From positions 1-41,017 of the forward strand of contig JAPPHD010000092.1 in NCBI GenBank assembly GCA_028821125.1: a stretch of 41,017 nt of DNA, in the 5' to 3' direction. Both the position numbers and the translations under genes were made by a program. The stretch's first letter is position 1, and every line of letters begins with the position of its first letter. This stretch comes from Gammaproteobacteria bacterium (GTDB lineage Bacteria; Pseudomonadota; Gammaproteobacteria; Pseudomonadales; Azotimanducaceae). The notes below the pieces were generated by a model. That model made no database searches. It worked only from the letters and a program-made list of their open reading frames with translations, and was not told the origin of the DNA. Shown here one piece after another: positions 2,574-12,072 of this stretch.

Positions 2574-3083
2574 GCTTCAAGGCTCCTCTTGTTCGATCGG
2601 TGGATTCCCGGGTGTTCGAACCGTCCCGAAGATTCCGGACCAAGGCGTACAGAACAACGAGTGCGTTGCTGCCCGAGTCCAAGTCAAAGAATCTGTACCC
2701 GTACTCAGTTTACCGCCAAGGAATGCGACGCGCTCGCCGGCCGCATGACGCACTCCTTGGTGGCACTTGGCATCAGCGAGCGGATCTAGGCGGTGGGCAC
2801 TGACACCATTACGACCCGGATGCTGGGGCTGCGGGACCAGGTCTCGGCACTGCTCCTCGACGGCTGGCAGTCGGCCGGAAGACCGCGCATCCGGCAAGGT
2901 GCCAGCGCGGCCGGCGTTTGCGGCACTGCTTCGGCAAACCATCCGCCAACCGCGAAATCGCGCGTGAAAGACGATGTTAAACTCCACGACGCCGGCTTCG
3001 GATTTAGGCTCCGTGTTGTACCAGGGTCCGCGCGGGCGGGACGTCGCTTCCGGGACAGCCGCATCGCAATTCGGAAACTTCGC
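2574..3083. other. 510-bp divergent intergenic region
   Basis: This gap separates the divergently transcribed GST and crotonase genes, so it must hold both promoters. Open frames cross it on both strands but show no recognisable domain and no good ribosome site, and I see no repeat, RNA or cobalamin-riboswitch fold in it. It may contain decayed sequence. Confidence 0.4.
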
Positions 3084-3860
3084 ATGAGCGACCCATTCGA
3101 GCACCTGATCGTTTCTGAACGCTCCGGCCTTCTTTCCGTAACCGTCGATCGGGAAGAGAAGCGCAACGCGCTGAGCCTGGAGGTTCTCGGGGAGATACGC
3201 GCCCTGTTCGAGTCCTGCTCCGAGGACCGCACCATCAAGGCCGCCACCATTACCGGAAAGGGGGAGAAGAGCTTCGCCGCCGGCGGCGACCTCAGGGAAC
3301 TGGATTCCGTTCGAACCGTTGAAGACAGCCGGCTGATGTCCGAGTCTGGGAGAACGGCACTGGATGCGATCAGGAACTTCCCCGTTCCGGTGGTCGCCGT
3401 CCTCAACGGCACGGCCCTTGGCGGGGGCGCGGAACTCGCCATGGCCTGCGATTTTCGCCTGGCCACGCCGAACGCAAGCATCGGCTTCCTGCAGGGAACA
3501 CTGAACATCACCACGGCCTGGGGAGGCGGGCCGGACCTTATCGAGCGCATCGGGTCCGCGCCGGCTCTCCGGCTGATTGCGACAGCGAAAGTCCTGAAGG
3601 CGCCGGAAGCCCTGGAGATCGGTGTCGTCGATGCCTTGGCGGACGAGTCCCAGGCGCTCGATGCTGCCGTTGGCAACTTCATGGAACCCATGCTCGCCAG
3701 ATTGCCTCACGTTCTCAGAGCCATGAAAGCCTTGAGGCTCGCGGCAAAGAAGCGGGTTCTGGATGGCCTGGCAGAGCTGGAAACAGGGTATTTTGTCGAC
3801 TGCTGGACAGACGATGCGCATTGGGAGGCGGCCGATGCCGTGCTGGGTGGAAGAAAGTGA
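3084..3860 (+). CDS. enoyl-CoA hydratase/isomerase family, ethylmalonyl-CoA decarboxylase-like
   Basis: A 258-residue crotonase. The oxyanion-hole segments are FAAGGDL (about 64-70) and GGGAELAMACD (113-123). One crotonase acid is present (E117), but the region that carries the second glutamate in true hydratases reads FLQGTLNITTAWGG (135-148), lacking PEV. A similar pattern (..GIIPSWGG) occurs in ethylmalonyl-CoA decarboxylase ECHDC1, which removes side products of acyl-CoA carboxylation, so a decarboxylase or lyase role is more likely than hydration. The stop codon overlaps the GTG start of the mutase (GTGA), indicating translational coupling and a shared substrate or product. I chose ATG 3084 because upstream sequence lacks family similarity. 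Confidence 0.85.
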   Translation: MSDPFEHLIVSERSGLLSVTVDREEKRNALSLEVLGEIRALFESCSEDRTIKAATITGKGEKSFAAGGDLRELDSVRTVEDSRLMSESGRTALDAIRNFPVPVVAVLNGTALGGGAELAMACDFRLATPNASIGFLQGTLNITTAWGGGPDLIERIGSAPALRLIATAKVLKAPEALEIGVVDALADESQALDAAVGNFMEPMLARLPHVLRAMKALRLAAKKRVLDGLAELETGYFVDCWTDDAHWEAADAVLGGRK

Positions 3861-10886: not shown

Positions 10887-10968
10887 ATCCGGCATACGGT
10901 GTTATCGGATCGACATCGATACCCCGATGTGCTGAAATTTTTTCCGTTCGAGTTGGAAGGGATGCGCA

Positions 10969-12072
10969 ATGCACCTGCGCGAGGACATCCCCGAACGCCT
11001 GCGTCCGGCTGCGGAAGCGGCGCTGTCGTGGGTCAACGATGTCCGCGGAACAAGCTATGAGTTGACCGGGCTGGTCGATGTCGACGAAGCCGGGAATGCC
11101 GATGAACCCTTCGATGTCGGGCTCGTTCTGTGCGACGGCGAGATCTGCATGCGCGAGCAGGTGCGCGTGCTGCCGGAGGACGGGGCGTACCGCTTCGATT
11201 TCGTCGCCGGGGCCGCACCCGACATCCCGCCGCTGCTCGACCCTCCCGAGGGAATTCGCTCGGCATGGCTCGACCGGCAGTTGCAGAACCATGAATTCGC
11301 GGTCCTCCTCTACTATCGCGGCCTGTGGTGACCCCCCTGCCGCTTCGAGTTGCGAAGCTATGTAAAGTCCGGCGTGCTCGAGGAGATTCGCGCGGCGGGC
11401 GGCGAGCTGTTCGCCATCACCAGCGAACCGCAGACGCTGGCGACGGAGGCGGAAGTGGAGTGGCAGACCGGCTACCCCGTGATCGGCGACCCCCACCACG
11501 AGATCCGCAAGGCCTGCAAGGAGAGAGGCTGGCTGGATGTCTTCTACAACGAGAACTACGGCCACCTGCGCAACCGCCCCTGGGCGAGCCACCCGAAAGG
11601 TTACTATCAGCCTGCGGTGCTGGCCGTGCACAAATCCGGGCGCATCCTCTACCGCTGGCGGGACGTGCCCAAGTACAGCACCATGAGCGGCGCCGGCGCC
11701 CGGCCGGAGGCGGCCTACACCTGGAAGAAGATACACGCGGCCATGCACAGCGTCGAAGATGCGGCGCCCGACCGGGAGCCCGTGCTGGGGGCGGAGAACG
11801 TTTCCTGGCCCCGGTTCCTGCTCATCCTGACGGCACATGGCTGGTTTCTCAGGCCCAAGGCATTTCCGTTGAGCCGTGCGGGAGACCCCGAGCGGGTCAG
11901 CCCGCGGGCGATGCTGAAGCGCGTGTACGGGTTCCTGGCGCTATGGCTCGTGCTCCTTCTCGTTATGCCGATTGCCTGGTTCGGTGCTGCCGTGGCGCTG
12001 TGGCTTGCAGTGCTGACGCCCGGCCTGATCGAGATCCATCGGCAGTTCCAGAACGAACCTGATCCGTATTGA
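10969..12072 (+). CDS. putative membrane selenoprotein, peroxiredoxin-like UxxC protein (UGA = Sec121)
   Basis: Two open frames, 10969-11331 and 11332-12072, lie in the same phase, separated only by TGA at 11329-11331. Read through, they give 367 residues. The junction reads FAVLLYYRGLW-U-PPC-RFELR, matching the active site of AhpC/TSA-type peroxiredoxins (FYRGxWCPxCRxEL), with UGA where the first Cys is expected. The second frame alone would begin after this motif and miss half the thioredoxin fold. A SECIS-like hairpin follows. Downstream, ITSEPQTLATEAE..YPVIGDPHHEIRKA continues the fold; residues 319-354 form two hydrophobic helices near the C-terminus. The N-terminal 95 residues are an unrecognised domain. 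Start ATG 10969 follows GGAAGG. Function is inferred: thiol/selenol peroxidase or reductase anchored in the membrane. The alternative is a nonsense-mutated gene. Confidence 0.82.
11342..11358 (+). promoter_or_regulatory. putative bacterial SECIS hairpin
   Basis: GCTTCGAGTTGCGAAGC forms a perfect 6-bp stem (GCTTCG with CGAAGC) closed by a 5-nt loop AGUUG. The loop begins 17 nt after the UGA. Bacterial SECIS elements lie inside the coding sequence just after UGA, with a small apical loop about 16-37 nt downstream and a G in the first two loop bases; this one meets each criterion. SelB would bind the loop to deliver Sec-tRNA. Confidence 0.72.

Follow-up and report, generated by a model that had tools for sequence, protein, structure and literature searches.

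A gene split by an in-frame UGA in a gammaproteobacterial contig most likely encodes a membrane-anchored selenium-containing redox protein

The stretch of DNA analyzed here, referred to as the window, comprises 41,017 nt from a Gammaproteobacteria bacterium of the Azotimanducaceae (assembly GCA_028821125.1, contig JAPPHD010000092.1, positions 1 to 41,017, forward strand). Two reading frames on its plus strand, which appear as separate genes under the standard code, are most likely one gene (10969-12072) for a membrane-anchored selenium-containing redox protein of 367 residues. Judged from sequence comparison, recoding of the UGA at 11329-11331 as selenocysteine (Sec) at residue 121 is nearly certain, and the product is very probably a membrane-anchored oxidoreductase. 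Equally strong is our confidence in the explanation as a whole, i.e., a single Sec-recoded, membrane-anchored thiol/selenol oxidoreductase built around a thioredoxin-fold core with a UxxC motif.

The original prediction was that two open reading frames lie in the same frame and are parted only by the TGA at 11329-11331, and read-through translation bears this out: when the TGA is taken as a residue, 10969-12072 is a single frame of 367 residues that contains the motif YYRGLW-U-PPC-RFEL and ends with a stop TGA at 12070-12072. As foreseen, the gene is split when read with the standard code, translation table 11 yielding a 120-aa frame (10969-11331) and a 240-aa frame with a TTG start (11350-12072). 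It also holds true that the downstream half lacks any start codon ahead of the motif: its earliest is the TTG at 11350, which resides within the loop of the hairpin described below. Direct inspection revealed GGAAGGG (10955-10961) 7 nt upstream of the ATG at 10969. As the gene itself ends with TGA, read-through would have to be confined to the inner codon.

In principle, the inner TGA may be a real stop. It could then stem from a nonsense mutation or from faulty assembly, or it could separate two genes with re-initiation downstream; the standard code as well as the available TTG at 11350 would agree with this reading. The distribution of the codon argues against it. Within the same taxonomic family (150 genomes, including that of the window), the protein family is present at 31 places in 29 genomes. 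Thirty of these places, the window's included, cover the site and each contains exactly one in-frame TGA, the exact position of the codon at the motif having been checked for 28 of them; the remaining place (G139:C566) starts downstream of the TGA site. A wider scan of species-representative genomes found 120 loci, of which 80 were kept. Codon 121 is TGA in 79 of them and TGT, encoding cysteine, in a single one (L107, from a Myxococcota genome). The scan could detect Cys forms, as it used two peptide patterns and one of them required a cysteine codon at this position. By their record titles, the 80 loci stem from Pseudomonadales, other Gammaproteobacteria, Alphaproteobacteria, Myxococcota/Deltaproteobacteria and Bryobacterales (Acidobacteriota), along with a few bins titled Opitutales (two) and Verrucomicrobia, Chloroflexi, Dehalococcoidia and Spirochaeta (one each). 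Some of these last bins may be assigned to the wrong taxon; G525, the genome with the 'Spirochaeta' locus, was returned by a search restricted to the phylum of the L107 genome. In that phylum, 24 of 282 genomes gave a match at E<=1e-30, and 27 matches extend over the motif, of which 26 carry TGA, the non-TGA case being the L107 gene itself. Of 369 genomes of the class, 59 had some match at E<=0.001; a full-length match was found in the window's genome only, and the other matches listed are confined to model positions 61-258. Two of 72,556 plasmid records matched, in the core only, and these are named peroxiredoxin-like family protein and alkyl hydroperoxide reductase.

The same codon recurs in 79 of 80 loci assigned by title to several phyla, and the TGA is thus neither strain-specific nor an error. 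The homologue search proposed with the prediction yielded many full-length Sec homologues and one full-length Cys homologue. A few members may have decayed or be wrongly assembled, as L126 and L128 contain one further stop each inside the match and the match to L093 is in two pieces; these are the loci among the 80 that would be in line with a real stop. This reading is nevertheless contradicted by the shared codon, by strong protein conservation downstream of the TGA in the member alignment, by a hairpin conserved beyond coding needs and by the one unbroken frame of the Cys homologue L107. We regard it as very improbable.

The hairpin GCUUCG-AGUUG-CGAAGC starts 10 nt past the UGA (11342-11358) and has a stem of six base pairs (11342-11347 with 11353-11358) and the loop AGUUG (11348-11352). 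It is the minimum-energy fold of a 36-nt stretch (-8.2 kcal/mol, z -2.57), while for 54 nt of the window sequence a different fold is predicted to have the lowest energy. For comparison across the family, 111 items were reduced to 89 distinct ones by counting identical 180-nt stretches once; the same-family set and the wider scan overlap in part, as they share contigs. Four loci had been dropped beforehand: L033, which starts past the motif, L071, which has an unreadable base in codon 124, L101, which has Arg124, and the non-member L130. The 89 include the non-member L038 and the Cys form L107, and leaving these out gave 87 distinct TGA genes. All six pairs are present in 84 of the 87, five pairs in two and three pairs in one, and the loop, in which bacterial SECIS elements are expected to have a G at one of the first two bases, reads AGUUA or AGUUG in 86 and AAUUA in one. 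The hairpin belongs to the predicted minimum in 75 of the 87 genes at 54 nt and in 80 at 40 nt. When synonymous codons were resampled 1000 times within each protein according to its own codon use, complete stems were expected in 3.8 genes on average and in 11 at most, compared with the 84 observed. Six pairs also occur at 13 of 14 further TGA places, three of which share one 36-nt string; the 14 include the first hit at L173, an adjacent gene for a different, Prx-like protein, and the count is 12 of 13 without it.

Codon usage is constrained most tightly from +4 to +9 relative to the TGA, with the least synonymous variation at +4, +5, +6 and +9. Arg125 is encoded by CGC and Glu127 by GAG in 86 of 87 genes each, Leu128 (codon +7) exclusively by TTA or TTG, and the codon for Arg129 follows its pairing partner. 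Elsewhere between -20 and +39, codon entropy is at least 0.85 bits for residues with two codons and at least 1.18 bits for those with three or more. The four main types of codon 126 pair with matching codons 129-130 and form the compensatory sets UUC-CGA-AGC, UCC-CGG-AGC, CUC-CGA-GGC and CGC-CGC-GGC. When the first base of codon 126 is T, residue 130 is serine in 50 of 56 genes and glycine in six; when it is C or G, residue 130 is glycine in all 31. The identity of residue 130 is set by the first base of codon 126: the RNA hairpin ties residues 126 and 130 together, which makes it a clear case of RNA structure dictating the choice of amino acids. In terms of sequence variation across the family, the SECIS-type hairpin is constrained beyond coding needs. 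A simple scan of the window returned five places that combine a UGA with a hairpin, the one reported here and four others (+9673, +34921, -38601 and -26230), which may be due to chance.

A check for selA, selB, selC and selD, likewise proposed with the prediction, found all four in the genome of the window. Contig C142 carries, side by side, the genes for SelA (518.5 bits), SelB (385.5 bits) and tRNA-Sec (75.8 bits; ARAGORN, anticodon TCA). SelD (277 bits) is the C-terminal part of a 727-aa Ndh-SelD fusion, the N-terminal part of which is a pyridine nucleotide-disulphide oxidoreductase (domain matches Pyr_redox_2 and AIRS; L165:2416-4599 on contig C33, minus strand). This protein has CGGC, i.e., cysteine, at the likely SelD active site, and it fits the marine Ndh-SelD fusion type reported in PMC2398784. 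A gene for a phage-type integrase (L039:13720-14592) begins about 170 bases past the tRNA-Sec gene on contig C142. It matches Arm-DNA-bind_3 and Phage_int_M, gave no match to a catalytic domain and is perhaps truncated; its position suggests selC as the insertion site of an integrated element. Among the same-family genomes that carry the gene, 20 of 29 have a tRNA-Sec above the Rfam cut-off, and ARAGORN detected a tRNA-SeC in four of the other nine. Since 96 of 121 non-carriers also have a tRNA-Sec above the cut-off, the trait is widespread in this taxonomic family and co-occurrence with the gene does not discriminate. Among 14 genomes that hold loci from the wider scan, 13 have a tRNA-Sec above the cut-off, the exception being that of L060; these 14 include the L107 genome, and that of L051 is the same contig as one same-family genome.

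Some bacteria reassign TGA, and a tryptophan codon directly precedes the TGA of the window gene. One may therefore ask whether the codon is read as another amino acid, e.g., tryptophan, through a code change or a suppressor. We consider this even less probable than a real stop. In 38 of 90 distinct family members, that of the window among them, the frame ends with TGA as its own stop, which shows that read-through is site-specific. In addition, the Sec machinery is present, the sole substitution seen is cysteine and a SECIS-type hairpin follows the codon. Recoding as Sec is clearly the preferred reading.

The Cys homologue L107 is encoded by one uninterrupted frame with TGT at the position of the Sec codon. 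In the tree of 65 members, it adjoins a Sec member (support 100/99) and sits inside larger Sec groups. A change from Sec to Cys is the simplest reading of this nesting, which is a single case at one locus. The fourth pair of the L107 stem is a C-C mismatch. However, single mismatches in the stem also occur in the TGA genes L035, L108 and L187, so that the mismatch in L107 is no more than suggestive of decay. The L107 genome still holds a tRNA-Sec (64.8 bits). An exchange of Sec for Cys in a genome that keeps tRNA-Sec is a natural experiment on the role of Sec.

At the protein level, an alignment and a tree were built from 65 members chosen for diversity and length. Cys55, Cys60, Trp120, Sec/Cys121, Arg125, Gln214-Pro215, Trp230, Gly291, Phe293, Trp326 and Pro334 are invariant. 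Cys124, which completes the UxxC motif, is present in 64 of the 65. In L101, arginine replaces Cys124 (UPPR) and the second cysteine is absent, which is an error or a real variant. The AlphaFold model of the window protein (mean pLDDT 90.9, pTM 0.86) consists of three parts: an N-terminal domain with a helix and four strands (residues 1-80, 10969-11208) that carries the invariant Cys55 and Cys60, a thioredoxin-fold, AhpC/TSA-like domain (residues about 100-258, 11266-11742) with U121-P-P-C124, and a C-terminal membrane module (residues 280-359, 11806-12045) comprising helix 280-290 with a conserved GWF and a hairpin of helices 312-332 and 335-359. A UxxC thioredoxin fold, an unknown N-terminal domain and two C-terminal helices had been proposed from the DNA, and Pfam, AlphaFold and hydropathy analyses support this arrangement. 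Pfam AhpC-TSA matched all 65 members and Redoxin 53 of them at E<=0.01, the window protein reaching 28.3 bits against AhpC-TSA (PF00578), which is above the gathering score of 26. No Pfam or NCBIfam model was seen to span the whole protein in any of the 65. Matches to NCBIfam models were weak and, where scores were shown, far below the cut-offs. A match of fatty acid desaturase (PF00487) to residues 250-349 (20.3 bits, gathering score 29.7; nine of 65 members at E<=0.01) was dismissed as a chance match to a hydrophobic region, and DUF3040, TctB, Yip1 and CopD, each found in one of 65 members, were also taken as chance.

The N-terminal domain alone (residues 1-97) was predicted with a pLDDT of 80.3, and Foldseek returned no match to it in the PDB at E<=0.001. 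Its weak matches include cystatin/monellin-type folds (adhiron, TM 0.55/0.66, E 0.75), and with matches of this strength 'cystatin-like' is a lead only. For the whole protein, the best Foldseek matches in the PDB are AhpC chains (E about 1e-5). True peroxiredoxins carry threonine in their motif where the family has Sec, and the peroxidatic motif PxxxTxxC/U was not found in the window protein, which has YRGLWUPPC instead. The original description as peroxiredoxin-like holds for the scaffold, with one nuance: by weak alignment, the active site is of the UxxC type of thioredoxin and ResA, not TxxC or TxxU as in true peroxiredoxins. 'Peroxiredoxin-like' describes the scaffold; peroxidase activity is a separate, putative matter.

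The active site raises the question whether the protein, while being a selenoprotein, is a periplasm-facing thiol:disulfide oxidoreductase of the ResA/TlpA kind, acting in disulfide reduction and cytochrome c maturation and not on peroxides or lipids. Profile alignment placed U121 on the N-terminal active-site cysteine of ResA (WCEPC), with a weak E value of 0.08, and ResA-type NCBIfam models matched 24 of 65 members at E<=0.01. The window protein, on the other hand, scores 16.6 bits against a cut-off of 170 for ResA (NF002854), and its best structural matches are the AhpC peroxiredoxins. ResA is anchored N-terminally and periplasmic. In the family, no member of the 65 has a hydrophobic window (Kyte-Doolittle >1.6) within its first 250 residues, whereas 64 have one in their C-terminal part. 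The 32 residues ahead of the first membrane helix have a mean net charge of +4.3 in the 65 members. Under the positive-inside rule, a positively charged flank stays in the cytoplasm, and the protein body therefore probably faces this compartment, charge and hydropathy being the basis of this assignment. Taken together, a periplasmic enzyme of the ResA/TlpA kind appears rather unlikely, and we retain the cytoplasm-facing, membrane-anchored oxidoreductase as the preferred reading.

For this enzyme, the following course can be proposed. SelB with Sec-tRNA would bind the hairpin 10 nt past the UGA at 11329, allowing insertion of Sec at position 121. The C-terminal helical hairpin would hold the thioredoxin-fold domain on the membrane, probably on its cytoplasmic face. 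In thioredoxin-fold selenoproteins with UxxC, Sec attacks and the second cysteine resolves. The selenolate of Sec121 would thus attack an oxidized substrate, the membrane module suggesting that this is membrane-borne. Our first choice is a lipid or organic hydroperoxide, a tentative assignment to which we give well under an even chance, and our second choice is a protein disulfide. Cys124 would then resolve Sec121 as a selenenylsulfide, followed by re-reduction by the cytoplasmic thiol pool, with Cys55 and Cys60 as candidate relay pair. A bolder version of this idea would see a nearly obligate Sec membrane peroxidase family of environmental bacteria, a counterpart in function of the selenoenzyme GPX4 that mends lipid hydroperoxides in situ, in which the conserved module (GWF, Arg318, Trp326, Pro334) presents the lipid to Sec121, Cys55 and Cys60 relay electrons, and the covariation of residues 126 and 130 fixed by the SECIS element serves the RNA structure rather than the enzyme. 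We deem this version quite improbable.

Gene neighborhoods were inspected for partners. Clustering of the open reading frames in 81 neighborhoods (80 loci and the window) revealed no conserved operon: clusters taken to be real neighbors recur in at most 12 loci, with varying distance and strand. The most widespread clusters (52 and 24 loci) were rejected as operon partners, as they overlap the gene itself on its opposite strand and were interpreted as antisense shadows. As neighboring genes are not conserved, substrate and reductant have no genomic support. In the window, nine neighbors were scanned. Pfam matches were obtained for MeaB, a DAO-type oxidoreductase, a dioxygenase, a cytochrome P450, TetR, an enoyl-CoA hydratase and a luciferase-like gene, and two of the nine gave none.

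Further candidate selenoproteins and family-related sequences came to light. Directly upstream of the family member at L173 (G692:C17) lies a short Prx-like UxxC candidate (minus strand, about 2633-3106; 157 aa from MAEK; FYRGHWUPFC) with its own six-pair hairpin, so that two selenoprotein genes would be adjacent. Short AhpC/TSA-like frames (about 164-181 aa) with one in-frame TGA are found in several same-family genomes (G031:C39, G130:C115, G137:C128, G092:C15, G033:C116, G061, G041, G122 and others) and probably represent the known short Prx-like UxxC selenoprotein. The 400-aa frame L038 (G031:C174; YRSAVW-U-PPCR) is weakly family-like, has a different downstream hairpin and is perhaps another unannotated selenoprotein. 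The membrane module by itself was seen at G092:C38:32079-32276 (residues 299-364, 32%) and G032:C117:709-777 (residues 344-366, 61%), which are either remnants of family genes or instances of the module in another protein.

How does the family relate to known systems? The recoding mechanism and the core are of kinds already known. A 2026 catalogue (PMC13188914) comprises 119 prokaryotic selenoprotein families and subfamilies, among them Prx-like thiol:disulfide oxidoreductase (PF00578, UxxC/UxxU), Redoxin UxxC and peroxiredoxin-like UxxS (cd02970); the latter two are also AhpC/TSA-type selenoproteins, which differ from the window family in Sec motif or domain assignment. No entry name or domain identifier in its table, which gives names, domain identifiers and motifs only, fits the three-part architecture, and the word 'transmembrane' is absent from its main text. 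The broad class of Prx-like UxxC proteins in the catalogue would, however, take in the core of the family. A literature search returned no paper on a 'UPPC' selenoprotein or selenocysteine. As far as the searched literature goes, with Haft and Tolstoy 2025 compared by catalogue rows only, the full-length, membrane-anchored and nearly Sec-only family appears undescribed.

It has to be considered whether we are simply dealing with the Prx-like UxxC class long known from the ocean surveys as 'Prx-like 1', the surveys having counted it without recording the full architecture. The match to Pfam AhpC-TSA and the UxxC motif fit that class, and the GOS survey (PMC2398784) binned 225 Prx-like 1 UxxC sequences by domain; on this description, the set may well contain reads from the window family. 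The class as described there, however, is defined by core and motif and has 2,740 Cys homologues, whereas the family reported here is nearly Sec-only, and the survey's text on fusions names Prx-like 3/Unknown_3, with CxxC and three cysteines in the added domain, not the CxxxxC of the present family. Of the four Prx-like classes in the same survey, three (Prx-like 1, Prx-like 3 and the UGC form) have far more Cys homologues than Sec forms, and in Prx-like 2 the two are about equal in number; SelW-like and UGSC proteins are rich in Sec. We treat identity with Prx-like 1 as a serious possibility that falls somewhat short of an even chance.

Among other relatives, the SelL-related model NF040769 shows weak similarity in the core (38 of 65 members at E<=0.01), but three members score 15.7 to 18.8 bits against a cut-off of 120, the window protein did not match it at E<=10, and the model has 173 positions compared with 367 residues. 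ResA/TlpA proteins share a WCxPC-type motif that aligns with WUPPC of the family, in which the hairpin is C-terminal and no N-terminal anchor was seen. The 2-Cys peroxiredoxin AhpC is alike in fold and differs by its TxxC peroxidatic motif. The Prx-like thiol:disulfide oxidoreductase selenoproteins (PF00578, UxxC; Zhang and Gladyshev) have in common with the family the AhpC/TSA-type thioredoxin fold, the UxxC motif and the SECIS-type hairpin downstream. Beyond these features, the window family adds an N-terminal domain of about 95 residues with an invariant CxxxxC and the C-terminal membrane hairpin, and it has one Cys form in 80 loci. With Sec as nearly the sole form, selenium looks close to required for the function of the protein.
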